This document shows positions 21,775 to 28,020 of a stretch of DNA of 49,930 nt, in pieces. This stretch comes from Acidimicrobiaceae bacterium (GTDB taxonomy: Bacteria > Actinomycetota > Acidimicrobiia > Acidimicrobiales > Ilumatobacteraceae). The notes under the pieces were generated by a model. The model ran no database searches and was not told where the DNA came from. It saw nothing but the letters and a program-made list of their open reading frames with translations. The first letter of the stretch is position 1. Every line of letters begins with the position of its first letter. The translations under genes and the position numbers were made by a program. The DNA lies in assembly GCA_947447175.1 (NCBI GenBank), contig CANFIM010000006.1, positions 1-49,930 on the forward strand, read 5' to 3'.

Positions 21775-22233
21775 GTGCGAGTTTCTACGCGAGGTGATTA
21801 TGCCTGTCGAGCATTGCTCTCCCTTGCCCTGCATTCAGGGGATAATTCGCCGACCTCTGTGAGAGACATTGCCGAGCGCACTGGCTTGCCCCAGCCATAC
21901 CTTGAACAAATCCTCCTTGCCCTCAAGGGCGCCGGCCTTGTTCGCTCCAAGCGTGGTGTTGGTGGCGGCTACCTGCTTGCGAAGTCACCCAGTGATATTC
22001 GCTTGTCAGAAATTATTTCTGCCGTTGACGGGCCCATCACGTTGGGCGATTTTGGTCAGCCACACCAAGACGGCTCGTGCGACCATGAGGGCCAATGCGT
22101 CCTGCTCGCAATTTGGGATGTGGCTGGGCAACACATGCGTGAGCACCTTGATGCCTACACCCTGGAAAACATTGCCTCAGCGGCTGGCGGAACTGGTCCG
22201 TGGCCCAAGGTGGATACTCACCACCACCACTGA
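21775..22233 (+). CDS. Rrf2-family transcriptional regulator
   Basis: This 152-residue Rrf2 regulator has the N-terminal winged helix VRDIAERTGLPQPYLEQILL (29-48) and the wing SKRGVGGGYLLAKSP (58-72). IscR and NsrR bind an iron-sulfur cluster through three Cys spaced C-x5-C-x5-C; here Cys102 and Cys108 are present but the third place is Trp114. It may still bind a cluster with another ligand, or sense thiols or metals. The protein ends in four His (149-152), a possible extra metal site. Target genes are unknown; its own short gap with the phosphodiesterase gene suggests that gene as a candidate. Confidence 0.88.
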   Translation: MRVSTRGDYACRALLSLALHSGDNSPTSVRDIAERTGLPQPYLEQILLALKGAGLVRSKRGVGGGYLLAKSPSDIRLSEIISAVDGPITLGDFGQPHQDGSCDHEGQCVLLAIWDVAGQHMREHLDAYTLENIASAAGGTGPWPKVDTHHHH

Positions 22234-22234
22234 T

Positions 22235-23167
22235 TTATTCGGGTGTTGCAAATTCGCAAGTGGCAAGAATTGCCACAAAATCTGCGGGCAGTGGCGCAGA
22301 CCACGTCATCTCTTCACCAGTTCCCGGGTGAATCAACGTCAGCCGTGCTGCGTGAAGCATGGGGCGTGGGGCCTTCAAAGCGGAACGCGCTCCGCCATAC
22401 AACGAGTCACCGACCACAGCGTGATTGACAGACGCAAGGTGCACGCGAATTTGATGTGTGCGTCCGGTTTCTAGAGTGCATTGCACCAACGAAAGATCGG
22501 CAGGCACATTAAAAGTGTCAACAACTTCTAGATGAGTGCGGGCCCACTTGCCACTATGCACCACTGTCATCTTCATGGGGTCTTTCGGATGACGACCAAG
22601 CGCCGCATCTACAACCGCCGTGGGCGAATCAAAGTGTCCCCATGCCAACGCGAGATATTCACGTCCCACTTCGTGATCAGACAATGCTGCAACAAGAGAG
22701 TCATAGGCGCGTTGTGAGCGAGCCACAACCATTAAGCCGGTTGTTCCCGAGTCGAGACGGTGCACAATGCCAGGACGAGCAGGTTGCCCCACCGATTGCA
22801 CTTCGGGATACAACGCAAGAATGCCATTGACCACAGTGCCTGTGCCATGGCTTGATGCCGGATGCACCACAAGGCCGGCGCTCTTGTTGATGACAATGAT
22901 GTCTTCATCGTCATACAACACTTCAAGTTTTACTGACGGATCACCAGCAGGTGGTTCGTCAACAGGGATCTTGTCGAGGTCAACAACAACTACTTGGCCT
23001 TCGCGCAAACGCGACTTTCCAGACTGTGTCACTACCCCATCAATTTCAGCGCCACCCGATGCAATCAGCTTCGAAGCGTCAGAACGAGAGATATCGGCAA
23101 TCAACGAAACGATGCGGTCAATGCGCTCACCATCAAGAGCTGCGGGAAGTGTCTCTTCAACTTTCAT
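22235..23167 (-). CDS. rluD: RluD-family 23S rRNA pseudouridine synthase
   Basis: RluD-type enzymes convert uridines of 23S rRNA helix 69 to pseudouridine. The 310-residue protein has an N-terminal S4 domain (RIDRIVSLIADISRSDASKL), the strand VVHPASSHGTGTVVNGIL, the catalytic HRLDSGTTGLMVVARS with its Asp, and the C-terminal GRTHQIRVHLASVNHAVVGD. It overlaps lspA by 4 bp (ATGA), the order lspA-rluD being common in actinobacteria. Its stop lies 1 bp from that of the convergent Rrf2 gene. Another RluA-type target cannot be excluded. Confidence 0.93.
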   Translation of the reverse strand: MKVEETLPAALDGERIDRIVSLIADISRSDASKLIASGGAEIDGVVTQSGKSRLREGQVVVVDLDKIPVDEPPAGDPSVKLEVLYDDEDIIVINKSAGLVVHPASSHGTGTVVNGILALYPEVQSVGQPARPGIVHRLDSGTTGLMVVARSQRAYDSLVAALSDHEVGREYLALAWGHFDSPTAVVDAALGRHPKDPMKMTVVHSGKWARTHLEVVDTFNVPADLSLVQCTLETGRTHQIRVHLASVNHAVVGDSLYGGARSALKAPRPMLHAARLTLIHPGTGEEMTWSAPLPADFVAILATCEFATPE

Positions 23168-23643
23168 GACACCTCATTTGCACCAGACGAACGGTACTCG
23201 GCAACCATGCCAATAATGAGGAGCCCTGCACCAATAGTGATTGCAGCATCTGCCACATTGAACGCGGGGAACCATTGCAGGTCAATGAAGTCGACAACTC
23301 GACCGTGCAACCAGCCTTTTCCACGGAAGACACGGTCACATACGTTGCCGACCGCGCCAGAAGTAATGAGACAGAGACCAAGTGCAGATAATGAAGTAGT
23401 TGCCCGCACCATTGCTCGAAAGAGCAAAGCGATAGCAACAATGGCAACAACACCAACAATCGGACCTAGTCCTTGGCCTTGTGAAAACGCAACGCCACTG
23501 TTGTAGCCAAGCGACAACTGCAATGTCCACACAATATGAACAACATGGCCGTCTGATAGTGACGACACAATCATTGATTTCGTCACTTGGTCAGCAAGCA
23601 CCACCAAAGCGGCGATCAGCATCAAGCGGCGCGGAGATGGCAC
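23164..23643 (-). CDS. lspA: Lipoprotein signal peptidase (signal peptidase II)
   Basis: LspA is a membrane aspartyl protease that removes signal peptides from prolipoproteins, such as the one encoded at 1-113. The 159 residues form four membrane segments; LADQVTKSMI, TSGAVGNVCDRVFRG and FNVADAAITIG hold the two catalytic Asp (in NVCDR and NVADA). The start is GTG 23643, 15 bp after the TraR/DksA-like gene, with which it is probably co-transcribed, and its stop overlaps the rluD start. Confidence 0.95.
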   Translation of the reverse strand: MPSPRRLMLIAALVVLADQVTKSMIVSSLSDGHVVHIVWTLQLSLGYNSGVAFSQGQGLGPIVGVVAIVAIALLFRAMVRATTSLSALGLCLITSGAVGNVCDRVFRGKGWLHGRVVDFIDLQWFPAFNVADAAITIGAGLLIIGMVAEYRSSGANEVS

Positions 23644-23658
23644 AGAGATACGAGGTGT

Positions 23659-24855
23659 TTAGCGACGGCCAAGTCCGCCGGCGCGTTCAGTAACAAGCTC
23701 GGTGGCCCAAGGAATAGCACGCAAACGCTCTTTTGGAATGGGAAGACCAGAGAGTGATGAATAGCCGTACTCACCGTTCTTCACGCGAAGAAGCGCTGCG
23801 TCGATTTCCTCAATGGTTTGACGTGCAGCTGCGGACAACGTGAGGTCTTGATCACGCTCAACAACCATGGTGTCACCTTCGCCACCATCTTCATCGAATT
23901 GCACGTCGCCCATTTCAGCGTCGGCAATCAGCGCATTCGCTTCATTCTCCAAGCGGTTTGCCTGGCCCAACAACTTGGCACGCTCTTCGTTCAATGAGTC
24001 ACGAATTTCAACAAGGAACTCATGTTTGAATTCCTTTGTTGATGTAATGCCATCCTTTGTCTCAATCTTGATGATTGGTGGACGCTTTGGTGGTTCTGGC
24101 TTGCGCTTTGCTGCTGCAGCAGCAGCCGCGGCAGCAGCCTTTGCCTCATCAGCAGCCTTCTTAGCGGCAGCCTTCTCAGCATCTGCGGCGGCCTTCGCAG
24201 CGGCCTTGGCCTCATCAGCAGCCTTCTTAGCGGCAGCTTTCTCAGCATCAGCAATCTTCTTCAGGCGTGCCTTCTCTGCGTCGGCAGCTTTCTTGGTCTT
24301 TGCTTTCTCAGCAGCAGCAGCTTTTGCAGCCTTTGCTTTCTCAGCAGCCACCTTTGCAGCAGCAGCTTTCTTTGCGGCAAGTTCCTTTGCCTTGGCAACT
24401 GCTGCAGCTTTCTGAGCTTTCGCTTTCTCGGCAGCGGCTTTGGCGGCAGCAGCCTTTTTCGCAGCAGCTTCCTTTTCTTTTGCCTTCTTTGCAGCAGCGG
24501 CAGCAGCAGCCTTTTGAGCCTTTGCTTTTTCGGCAGCGGCCTTGGCGGCAGCAGCGTTCTTCGCAGGAGCAACTTTCTTTGACGGCGCGGCCTTCTTGAC
24601 AACCTTCTTCGCAGGAGCGGCCTTCTTCACCACTTTCTTAGCGGGTGCTGCCTTCTTCACAACCTTCTTCGCGGGCGCGGCTTTCTTGACAACCTTCTTG
24701 GCGGGTGCTGCCTTCTTTGCTGGCGCAGCCTTCTTGGCGGGAGCGGACTTCTTCACAACCTTCTTGGCGGGTGCTGCCTTCTTTGCTGGCGCAGCCTTCT
24801 TCACGGCCTTCTTTGCTGGCGTGGACTTCTTAGCGGGCGACTTCTTGGTAGCCAT
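23659..24855 (-). CDS. TraR/DksA-type protein with long histone H1-like Lys/Ala tail, zinc finger cysteines lost
   Basis: The 398-residue product has three parts: residues 1-100 are PAKK/KKVVKKAAPA repeats like histone H1 tails, 101-262 an Ala/Lys/Glu-rich stretch likely to form a long helix, and about 275-398 a DksA/TraR-like domain with a coiled-coil (SLNEERAKLLGQANRLENEA) and finger region. In the finger the four Cys of the C4 family are replaced by Ser366, Ser369, Leu387 and Glu390, while flanking GxPIPxxRLxAxPWAT is kept. It may bind DNA through the tail and RNA polymerase through the DksA-like part (inference). ATG 24855 has AAGGAG 10 nt upstream. A similar gene next to lspA is known in other actinobacteria. 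Confidence 0.85.
   Translation of the reverse strand: MATKKSPAKKSTPAKKAVKKAAPAKKAAPAKKVVKKSAPAKKAAPAKKAAPAKKVVKKAAPAKKVVKKAAPAKKVVKKAAPAKKVVKKAAPSKKVAPAKNAAAAKAAAEKAKAQKAAAAAAAKKAKEKEAAAKKAAAAKAAAEKAKAQKAAAVAKAKELAAKKAAAAKVAAEKAKAAKAAAAEKAKTKKAADAEKARLKKIADAEKAAAKKAADEAKAAAKAAADAEKAAAKKAADEAKAAAAAAAAAAKRKPEPPKRPPIIKIETKDGITSTKEFKHEFLVEIRDSLNEERAKLLGQANRLENEANALIADAEMGDVQFDEDGGEGDTMVVERDQDLTLSAAARQTIEEIDAALLRVKNGEYGYSSLSGLPIPKERLRAIPWATELVTERAGGLGRR
24591..24852 (-). repeat. Tandem repeats coding PAKK / KKVVKKAAPA units
   Basis: The 5' end of the TraR/DksA-like gene is built of roughly 30-bp units that encode AKKVVKKAAP, four of them perfect at protein level (residues 52-91), plus shorter AAPAKK units. 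Codons vary between copies (gcgggc, gcaggagc, gcgggtgct), so the repeats are kept by selection at protein level or are not recent. Confidence 0.75.
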
Positions 24856-24875
24856 GGTGAGCATTCTCCTTGTGC

Positions 24876-24927: not shown

Positions 24928-27900
24928 TCAACGACTGCGTGCAACCGAGACACCAATACTGGCGCCTTCAATGGCAACGGGGCGCTCCATAGTGGTGTCC
25001 CACACCACTTCTGTTGCCAATGTTTCACCAGCGATCAAGGCCTCATGCACGGAAATTTGTGACTTCAGAACCTCGTCGACACCCAAGGTGAGCACGATTC
25101 GGTCTGAAACCTGCAGGTCAGCATCGCGACGGGCTTGCTGCACCGCACGCACCACATCGCGAGCGAGGCCCTCGGCTTCAAGCTCTGGGGTCACGGTGAT
25201 ATCAAGAAGCACCACGCCTGCGCCACCGGCAAGTGGCGCACTCGCTGAATCGGAGTTTGTAACAAGACGCAAACTGTATTCACCTGGTTGCAATGACTCT
25301 CCGGCAACGTGGATGATGTCGCCATCTTGGGTCCACTCGCCCTTTTTCACCGCAACAATGACGGCTTGTGTGTTCTTGCCGAGGCGTGGTCCTACAACGG
25401 CGGGTACCACTTGAAGTTCGTGCGATGCAACAGCATCAACATCGGTAGTGAGGACTACTTCACGTACATTGACCTCATCACGCACAATGTCGAGATAGTT
25501 GGCAAGTGATTCTGCTGAGCCTGATGCAACCGTGAGCGATGCCAAAGGCAAGCGCACTCGACGACTATGCGTTTTGCGCACCGACAATGCAGATGAACAC
25601 ACATCGCGAATCATGTCCATGGCGGTAACGAGGGAGGCGTCGCGCGGCAAGGCTGCCGAGGTGGGCCAATCACTGAGATGAACACTCGGAGCACCAACAT
25701 TGAGCCCGGCGTAGATTTCGTCAGCCACCATTGGCAACAAGGGTGCAGCAATCTGAGTCAACAGATGCAACACCGTGTGCAATGTGTCAATGGCATCTTG
25801 GTCACCCGCCCAGAAGCGATCGCGGCTACGACGGATGTACCAATTAGTGAGCACGTCGAGGAACGAACGAATGGTTTGACACGCAGCAAACAGGTCGTAT
25901 GAATCCATTGAGGTTGTCACCAAATCAATGGTGTCGCCCAACTTGCCCAACACGTATCGGTCGAGAACATTGGATGAGTCGGTACGGAATGTTCCACTCT
26001 TATTCTCTGCGTTTGCGTACAACGACAAGAAGTAATAGGAGTTCCAGAGAGGTAACAAAACCTGTCGAACCGTATCGCGCATACCAACATCGGTGACTGA
26101 GAAGTCTCCTCCGCGCAAGATAGGTGAAGACAAGAGATACCAGCGCATTGCATCAGCACCGTGAGAGTCAAACACTTTCATTGGATCTGGATAGTTGCGC
26201 AGACTCTTTGACATTTTTGCGCCATCATCACCCAGCACAATTCCGTGGCTGACGCACGACGAGAATGACGGACGATCAAACAAAGCTGTGGCTAACACAT
26301 GCAGTGTGTAGAACCATCCGCGAGTTTGTCCGATGTATTCCACAATGAAGTCGCCGGGGTAATGGCTCTCAAACCAATCACGGTTCTCAAATGGATAATG
26401 CACCTGGGCGAATGGCATAGAGCCGCTTTCAAACCAGCAGTCAAGCACTTCGGGGACGCGACGCATCATTGACTTCCCTGTGGGGTCATCGGGGTTCGGA
26501 CGAACGAGATTGTCGATGCCAGGGCGATGCAGGTCTGTTACTTCAACACCAAAATCGCGGCTGAGGTCTTCCAAGGATCCGTAGACATCAATGCGCGGAT
26601 ACGTAGGGTCATCGCTCTTCCACACAGGAATAGGTGATCCCCAGAATCGGTTACGGCTGATGGCCCAGTCACGTGCATTGGCAATCCACTTACCAAATGA
26701 TCCGTCCTTCAAATGCTCGGGAGTCCACGAGATTTGCTGGTTCAACTCCACCATGCGGTCACGGAATTTTGTGACCTGAACAAACCATGAAGAGACAGCG
26801 CGGTACACCAAAGGCTCAGCACAACGCCAACAGTGCGGGTACGAGTGGTTGTAAGTGTCGTGACGAAGTACAACACCCATTTCTTTCAATGTCTTGATGA
26901 CATCAGGGTTTGCATCAAATACGTGACGACCCCCCCATGGAGTGATTTCAGCGGTGTATTGACCATGCTCGTCCATTGGACAAATGGTGGGAATTCCAGC
27001 GGCGTTGCATTCGTTTTGGTCGTCTTCACCGAAACCAGGAGCCATATGCACAACGCCGGTGCCGTCTTCCGTAGTGACAAACTCTGCGCCCAGCACCTTG
27101 AATGCATTCGCTGTTCCTGCAAGGAATGGAAAGAGAGGGGTGTATGAACGACCAACAAGTTCTGAGCCCTTGAGGGTTGCTACCTGTTCTGCGCCGTCTA
27201 ATTCTTTTTCGTATGCGCCCAATCGGGCAGCAGCCATGACATAGGTGTTTCCATCAGGGTGCTTCATTACCGCGTAATCAACATCAAGGCCAACAGCCAG
27301 TGCCAAGTTGCTCGGCAATGTCCATGGTGTTGTTGTCCACGCGAGAATCTTCTCCCCTGTTTCCAACTGGAAGGCAACGGTGAGTGCGGGGTCTTGACGA
27401 TCGCGATACACATCATCCATACGTGTTTCTGTGTTGGACAACGGTGTCTCGCAGCGCCAGCAGTACGCAAGCACACGGAATCCCTCGTAAATGAGACCCT
27501 TGTCCCACAATGTGCGAAACGCCCACATGACACTTTCCATGTATGGCGTATCAAGAGTTTTGTAATCGTTGTCGAAGTCAACCCATCGTGCTTGACGCGT
27601 GACATACCGCTGCCATTCGTCGGTGTATCGAAGAACACTGGTGCGACATGCATCGTTGAACTTGTCAATACCGAATTCAGTAATTGCGGGGTGACCAGCA
27701 ATGCCTAATTCTTTTTCTGCTTCCACTTCCGCGGGCAAACCGTGGCAGTCCCAGCCAAAACGGCGTTCAACATGATGGCCTCGCATTGTTTGGTAGCGAG
27801 GCACAGCATCTTTTACAAAGCCGGTGAGAAGGTGTCCGTAGTGCGGAAGACCATTGGCAAATGGTGGGCCATCATAAAAAACGAATTCGTTCTTCCCTGC

Positions 27901-28020
27901 GTCTCCCACTGGTCGCGCTTGCACGCTGGCCTGGAATGTGGCGTCGCGCTCCCAGCGAGCCAACACGCCTTCTTCCATGCGTGGGAAGTTTGGCTGGGGG
28001 TCAACTGCGGGATAGGTCAC
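24928..28020 (-). CDS. ileS: Isoleucyl-tRNA synthetase
   Basis: IleS charges tRNA-Ile. The 1030-residue class I synthetase has the HIGH motif as HYGH in [16 protein letters not shown], the KMSKS motif in [16 protein letters not shown], an editing domain with [14 protein letters not shown], and a long C-terminal tRNA-binding part. Length and motifs ([16 protein letters not shown]) fit the eukaryote-like type found in many actinobacteria, a type often insensitive to mupirocin (family knowledge). The start is GTG 28020 with TAGCCT (28032-28027) exactly 6 nt upstream, so the mRNA is probably leaderless and no T-box leader is present. Confidence 0.97.

Follow-up and report, generated by a model that had tools for sequence, protein, structure and literature searches.

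The window, i.e. the whole stretch of 49,930 nucleotides that was analysed, belongs to an Acidimicrobiaceae bacterium (Ilumatobacteraceae) whose genome of 1.6 Mb is incomplete (82% complete). On its reverse strand, positions 23659-24855 encode a DdbA-type protein of 398 amino acids plus stop, which starts with the ATG at 24855 and ends at the stop codon 23659-23661. Ten bases ahead of this ATG lies an AAGGAG (24866-24871, same strand), the likely ribosome binding site, and because of its position a longer frame of 407 amino acids from 24882 appears less likely. Upstream, the gene is flanked by ileS (24928-28020; TIGR00392, 826 bits, over cut-off), whose product keeps two CxxC pairs (at 187 and 397), and downstream by lspA (23164-23643; TIGR00077, 83.9 bits, over cut-off) together with a gene for an RluA-family pseudouridine synthase, all of them on the same strand. 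This flanking by both ileS and lspA, one of the features that assign the gene to the DdbA type, corresponds to the position of ddbA in Streptomyces coelicolor. In the same region, the IleRS encoded by 24928-28020 also matches the MupA model (655 bits) and the MupB model (641 bits), each with a cut-off of 1900 that is missed by far, and may represent an IleRS type related to mupirocin-resistant enzymes. A separate observation concerns the Rrf2-family regulator at 21775-22233 (TIGR00738, over cut-off), the C-terminal end of which is a natural run of four His.

A sequence-only reading of this DNA had described a Lys/Ala/Pro-rich tail ahead of a DksA-like domain, and translation and composition of the reverse-strand frame bear this out. 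Residues 1-260 comprise 78 Lys, 116 Ala and 17 Pro, carry a net charge of +63 and include neither aromatic residues nor Cys; residues 274-398 are of ordinary composition with a net charge of -10. A 100-residue stretch with at least 60 Lys, Ala and Pro is unique to this frame among the 64 frames of the window (stop to stop, at least 150 codons). The histone H1-like tail itself (residues 1-100; 24556-24855) consists of PAKK and KKVVKKAA repeats with 37 Lys, zero acidic residues and a net charge of +37, and is predicted to be disordered (pLDDT of the blocks 42-58, no secondary structure in the model). It is followed by one predicted uninterrupted helix of 148 residues (101-248; 24112-24555; pLDDT of the blocks 71-95, most of them 92-95 in the full-protein model), which, at a rise of 0.15 nm for each residue, would be about 22 nm long; residues 101-250 are chiefly Ala, Lys and Glu, without Pro. 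A Pro/Lys linker and a short N-terminal part of the domain, assigned by composition and model, occupy residues 249-277 (24025-24111). The Burkholderia H1-like model scores 16.3 bits against the tail, under its cut-off of 80, and a P0002 match with 12.6 bits (cut-off 25; E 0.089) to a domain of anthrax toxin was rejected as a chance match in a helix.

The DksA-like domain and its former zinc finger

The C-terminal part of the protein is composed of a predicted DksA-like helical hairpin, or coiled coil (residues 278-360; 23776-24024), and of the former zinc finger (residues 361-398; 23662-23775), which contains neither Cys nor His. In the alignment with relatives that retain four cysteines (C4) and with E. 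coli DksA, the places of the first to fourth finger Cys are taken by S366 (23758-23760), S369 (23749-23751), L387 (23695-23697) and E390 (23686-23688), exactly the Ser, Ser, Leu and Glu that the sequence-only reading had named. The CxxC-17-CxxC finger of the TraR/DksA family is thus absent, PF01258 reaching 15.6 bits against a cut-off of 24.9, and the holding of a metal by other finger residues is ruled out by the lack of Cys and His throughout residues 361-398.

In spite of this, the relationship to DksA is recognizable at several levels. The NCBIfam models yteA (3e-16) and dksA (2.4e-08) match the end of the protein, both far under their curated cut-offs (34.3 against 115.5 bits for the DksA equivalog TIGR02420), and sequence profiles match the structures 6ptg, 4ijj, 2kq9 and 1tjl. 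An AlphaFold (AF2) model of the domain (138 amino acids), built from an alignment of the window domain with 47 relatives, all of them zinc-free, has a mean pLDDT of 82.8 and values of 85-89 in the finger blocks; metal lies outside what AF2 models. Superposition by VIA-align gave Z 12.3 to E. coli DksA (1tjl; 118 residues, 2.8 A), Z 12.2 to the zinc-free DksA2 of Pseudomonas aeruginosa (4ijj; 117 residues, 2.4 A) and Z 10.0 to Chlamydia Dks (6ptg), compared with Z 7 to 8, and none above 8, for unrelated hairpins alone. In Foldseek, P. aeruginosa DksA2 ranked first and E. coli DksA second, and all eight chains with E below 0.05 are named DksA, Dks or DnaK suppressor. Structure prediction of the C-terminal domain, proposed as a check by the sequence-only reading, hence returned a DksA fold, and the model supports retention of the coiled-coil hairpin and globular DksA fold without zinc ligands. 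That much of the earlier interpretation stands, by sequence profiles and predicted model; its further proposal of simultaneous DNA binding and polymerase contact is taken up below in conditional form. The reading had missed that the architecture has a precedent, that the Cys disappeared long ago in two steps and throughout a family, that the predicted helix ahead of the domain is very long, and that most ppGpp-site residues of DksA are lacking. With respect to the hairpin tip, the DxxDxA motif, a name given in the context of TraR (PMC9239242), has no literal match within residues 274-398, and two alignments disagree on the acidic residue equivalent to D74.

Conservation and history of the cysteine-free finger

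Relatives were drawn from genomes that share with the window's organism its genus, family, order, class or phylum, and from named records, which are metagenome-assembled genomes with titles such as Actinomycetota, Acidimicrobiaceae, Ilumatobacteraceae and acIV; lakes or estuaries appear in several of the titles, and unrelated cultured species in a few. The four Cys are missing in all 39 family loci read (42 less 3 duplicates; G031 and the partial G006 excluded) and in all 80 loci of the named scan, these being the best 80 of at least 515 relatives. Four of 37 family genomes, one of them 96% complete, yielded no match. When identical domains from the survey genomes and the named scan (best 80 of at least 515) are counted once, 96 of the 152 distinct rows among the matches listed lack the four Cys (C0): 77 read SSLE at the four sites, 12 SSSE, 3 STSE and one each SSRE, SSME and STRE, while one breaks off ahead of the third and fourth sites; there is no Cys anywhere in the 125 columns of these 96 domains. 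The remaining 56 rows comprise 38 CCCC, 8 CSRY, 3 CCCD, 2 CSCC and one each of CSRH, CSRF, CSTA, CCHC and CCCH. In addition to this main series, partial loss was seen in L071 and L072 (same class), which read CSCC, and in L241 (order), which reads CGCH. The apparent stop codons within the matches of family f92 (L201, L206, L251) were discarded, since the true end of these proteins, at GGF, comes earlier and the profile match overran the stop.

A survey of lspA-linked homologues for loss of Cys had likewise been proposed. Among the 96 distinct C0 domains, none of which has a finger Cys, 95 are followed by lspA on the same strand within 1 kb, and for 89 the distance is no more than 200 bases; the one domain without an lspA call (L160) is cut by the end of its locus. 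The sequence-only reading had named, as evidence against itself, intact C4 fingers in all homologues beside lspA together with a frameshift here; what was found are C0 relatives linked to lspA and a frame free of frameshifts. The ileS gene is on the same strand in 80 of the 96 C0 domains and was not found in 16. Its orientation tracks the state of the finger, with the same strand in 80 of 80 C0 domains among the matches listed where ileS was found, and the opposite strand in 11 of 12 C4 and 5 of 6 one-Cys (C1) domains of the order that have an ileS call; a local inversion may be a hallmark of the window's family.

The pattern of substitutions indicates constraint on the cysteine-free domain. 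Pooled dN/dS is 0.154 in the finger and 0.161 in the coiled coil (53 non-independent pairs formed from 37 unique C0 codon rows), ratios that are rough given the high pooled synonymous difference of 0.48-0.53. Among the matches listed, Ser at the first site and Glu at the fourth are invariant in all 94 full C0 rows; the tip stretch EMGD..F....GEGD..V.ER..D likewise shows no variation across the 48 aligned rows. At the second site both TCN and AGY serine codons occur along with a few Thr, a pattern that points to selection for a small residue with a hydroxyl group. Because the finger ratio is close to that of the coiled coil and the Ser and Glu sites do not vary, the zinc-free finger is, on this comparative evidence, being maintained and the gene is not decaying. 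An assembly error, frameshift or pseudogene would be conceivable in view of the repetitive and hence error-prone DNA of the tail, yet the frame is open and preceded by a ribosome binding site, the domain is under purifying selection, and like substitutions recur in the loci of 119 relatives (including the best 80 of at least 515). Since relatives from the family and from the named scan also lack the Cys, sequencing error does not account for their absence; frameshift or error is refuted by these relatives, and the probability left to such an origin is negligible.

Matches were obtained in 147 of 148 genomes of the order, seven of them weaker than E 1e-20 and possibly paralogues. In further families two large sets emerged, CCCC on the one hand and CSR with mainly Y, H or F at the last site on the other, which among the tree rows occupy 32 and 24 families, respectively, with no family in both. 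A first tree of 117 rows was built on an alignment stripped of the four Cys columns. In it, all C1 and C0 rows and two mixed rows form one clade (99/94), in which C0 is nested as a single clade (100/99), and 6 state changes are needed versus 56.4 in shuffles. This tree omits duplicates as well as any row that scored less than 110 bits or had over 12 gaps (including L071, CSCC), and C0 was thinned to 31 rows; its bootstrap was not settled, and both trees rest on 120 columns with many unresolved forks. The second, outgroup-rooted tree of 61 rows (half of the C4 and C1 rows and a quarter of C0, mixed-state and long rows left out; the eleven outgroup rows belong to other classes, 9 being CCCC and 2 CCCD) places C1 and C0 as one clade (99/96) inside C4, with the C0 clade within it (100/99), so that three changes, the minimum, suffice. 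Because C1 plus C0 and C0 each form one clade, the trees indicate two losses: a single change from CCCC to mostly CSR[YHF], and a later single change to SSLE at the base of the window's family. Three Cys accordingly disappeared in an ancestor shared with many sister families, and the window's family lost the last one in its own ancestor. Not all rows match this simple series, the exceptions being four mixed ones (CSCC, CCDC, CGCH, CCGC). The natural progression from C4 via one Cys to none, in what is apparently one orthologous gene, offers proteins with which to test whether the finger is needed for zinc or for its shape only, and what the Cys sense.

One may ask whether zinc itself drove these losses, as an adaptation to zinc-poor water comparable to DksA2 of Pseudomonas, a zinc-free paralogue associated with zinc starvation according to PMC9213440. 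In keeping with such sparing, a C4 paralogue over the cut-off occurs in 23 of 101 family genomes, all of at least 2.8 Mb, and thus in no family genome below that size, the window's own genus included. The own genome (82% complete) has one match to a DksA-like gene and no PF01258 match over the cut-off, so that the DdbA-type gene is the only one of DksA/TraR type found in this incomplete 1.6 Mb genome; in the part that is assembled, neither L31 nor L33 had a match. Against zinc sparing, it is the copy linked to lspA, rather than an additional paralogue, that lacks Cys. Moreover, the loss of three Cys is older than 24 sampled families and that of the last Cys older than the whole sampled family, in which genome sizes of 3 to 5 Mb also occur; small genomes are therefore no condition for the loss. 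Furthermore, beta-prime and IleRS of the own genome keep their CxxC pairs, and the loss of zinc hence appears specific to the DksA-like domain. Zinc sparing is thereby weakened as the main cause and seems improbable.

Tail variation, ppGpp site and proposed action

Tails were compared among those uncut by the end of a locus, with starts picked by a rule that can be wrong, as it surely is for L173 (1016 amino acids), and with a run free of Pro and Gly as proxy for the helix. Of the intact C0 tails, 77 of 83 reach a net charge of at least +15, as do 27 of 33 C1, 25 of 42 C4, all 5 mixed and 4 of the 7 Streptomyces-like tails. Since 6 of 83 C0 tails (for one of which the start is wrong) and 17 of 42 C4 relatives stay below +15, the tail may not be essential. 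Pro/Gly-free runs of at least 60 residues occur in 43 of 83 C0 tails, in none of the 33 C1, 42 C4 and 7 Streptomyces-like tails, and in one of five mixed rows, namely L071 (CSCC, another order), with 67 residues and KKVVAKK repeats; long runs are therefore not strictly limited to the C0 clade. From these counts across C0, C1 and C4, the Lys-rich tail is to be regarded as old; in roughly half of the zinc-free clade the long helix appears to have been added. The coding DNA of the tail (24134-24806) consists of tandem arrays with units near 30, 33 and 66 bases, tail length varies within one genus from 52 (L028) to 314 residues (L018), and evolution by repeat slippage is likely.

Site 2 for ppGpp on E. 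coli DksA is formed by K98, R129 and K139 together with N680 and K681 of beta-prime. According to the alignment, K98 is replaced by Glu and R129 by Ile here, and the position of K139 stays basic as Arg or Lys; K98 and R129 are missing in the C4 rows of the order, too. In the own beta-prime, N680 and K681 are both Gln, and the rim-helix stretch is present with 20 of 58 positions identical to E. coli. As Rel is present, the own genome should be able to make ppGpp, but because most residues of the site are missing on both partners, we infer that ppGpp does not act through site 2 in this lineage.

The absence of the zinc ligands, of DxxDxA and of most ppGpp-site residues, along with the longer tail of the C0 clade (median 208 amino acids versus 92 in C1 and 113 in C4), could also mean that the domain has come off RNA polymerase and persists as a folded cap or dimerization piece of a plain histone-like nucleoid protein. 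For a mere cap, though, the invariant tip stretch in 48 rows would be superfluous, the strong constraint on hairpin and finger (dN/dS about 0.16) argues against it, and DksA is still the best match of the predicted fold, which leaves this alternative rather unlikely.

Taken together, the observations are best accounted for, with a probability of roughly 60%, by a DdbA-type protein of this lineage in which a zinc-free DksA-like hairpin acts on polymerase and the tail binds DNA. By analogy with DdbA, the disordered +37 tail would bind DNA without sequence preference, and the predicted helical rod of 148 residues would separate it from the hairpin, which, to judge from its fold, may enter the secondary channel of RNA polymerase. 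According to the predicted model, the globular part holds its fold without zinc ligands, packing presumably replacing zinc, so that activity would be independent of zinc and of thiol oxidation. Since most residues of the DksA-ppGpp site are lost on both partners, the action on polymerase would be expected to proceed largely without ppGpp at the site used by E. coli DksA. A more ambitious form of this proposal, which we put forward tentatively and consider less probable, is a rebuilt DdbA, blind to zinc and redox state and independent of ppGpp site 2, whose rigid rod of about 22 nm would tether the nucleoid to RNA polymerase and which arose via a one-Cys intermediate that survives in 24 sampled families.

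Comparison with known systems

The closest parallel is DdbA (SCO2075) of S. coelicolor, described in reviews as an N-terminal histone H1-like tail joined to a C-terminal DksA-like domain (PMC9043899; PMC11942623), with a tail that is reported to bind DNA (PMC9043899). Like DdbA, the window protein fuses a Lys-rich, H1-like N-terminal region in one frame to a DksA-like domain, and with it the DdbA architecture reaches past Streptomyces into other actinobacteria. Eight genomes that are Streptomyces-like by their size and gene neighbours (L086, L088, L090-L095) carry a tail-plus-DksA gene near lspA and ileS. In contrast to these loci (CCCC in 7 of 8, CCCD in 1 of 8), the finger of the window protein is devoid of Cys, and unlike their 7 distinct rows, 0 of 7 of which have a Pro/Gly-free run of at least 60 residues, it is preceded by the predicted 148-residue helix.

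P. aeruginosa DksA2 is described as zinc-free and as working like DksA (PMC9213440, PMC9239242), and as a paralogue with two Cys that is made under zinc starvation (PMC9213440). The predicted structure of the window domain resembles DksA2 (4ijj) in having a DksA fold without zinc; the 4ijj chain of 136 residues has no such tail, whereas the window protein combines a Lys-rich tail with zero Cys and is the lspA-linked copy. The Dks of Chlamydia trachomatis (6ptg), from a distant lineage and with a chain of 132 residues without a tail, has a finger of the form YGICDVSG...PYATMTVKSQ with one Cys, like the C1 relatives. With E. coli DksA (1tjl) the window protein shares the fold and equivalents of R125 and P130; it differs in the lack of C4, K98, R129 and a literal DxxDxA, and in a C-terminal helix that is short in the model (388-392). 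The literature searched, a limited set mostly judged by titles, yielded no report of a Cys-free DdbA or DksA of Acidimicrobiia. Hence, the fusion of tail and DksA-like domain is already known as the DdbA architecture, and it is the fixed loss of zinc together with the predicted 148-residue helix that is new.
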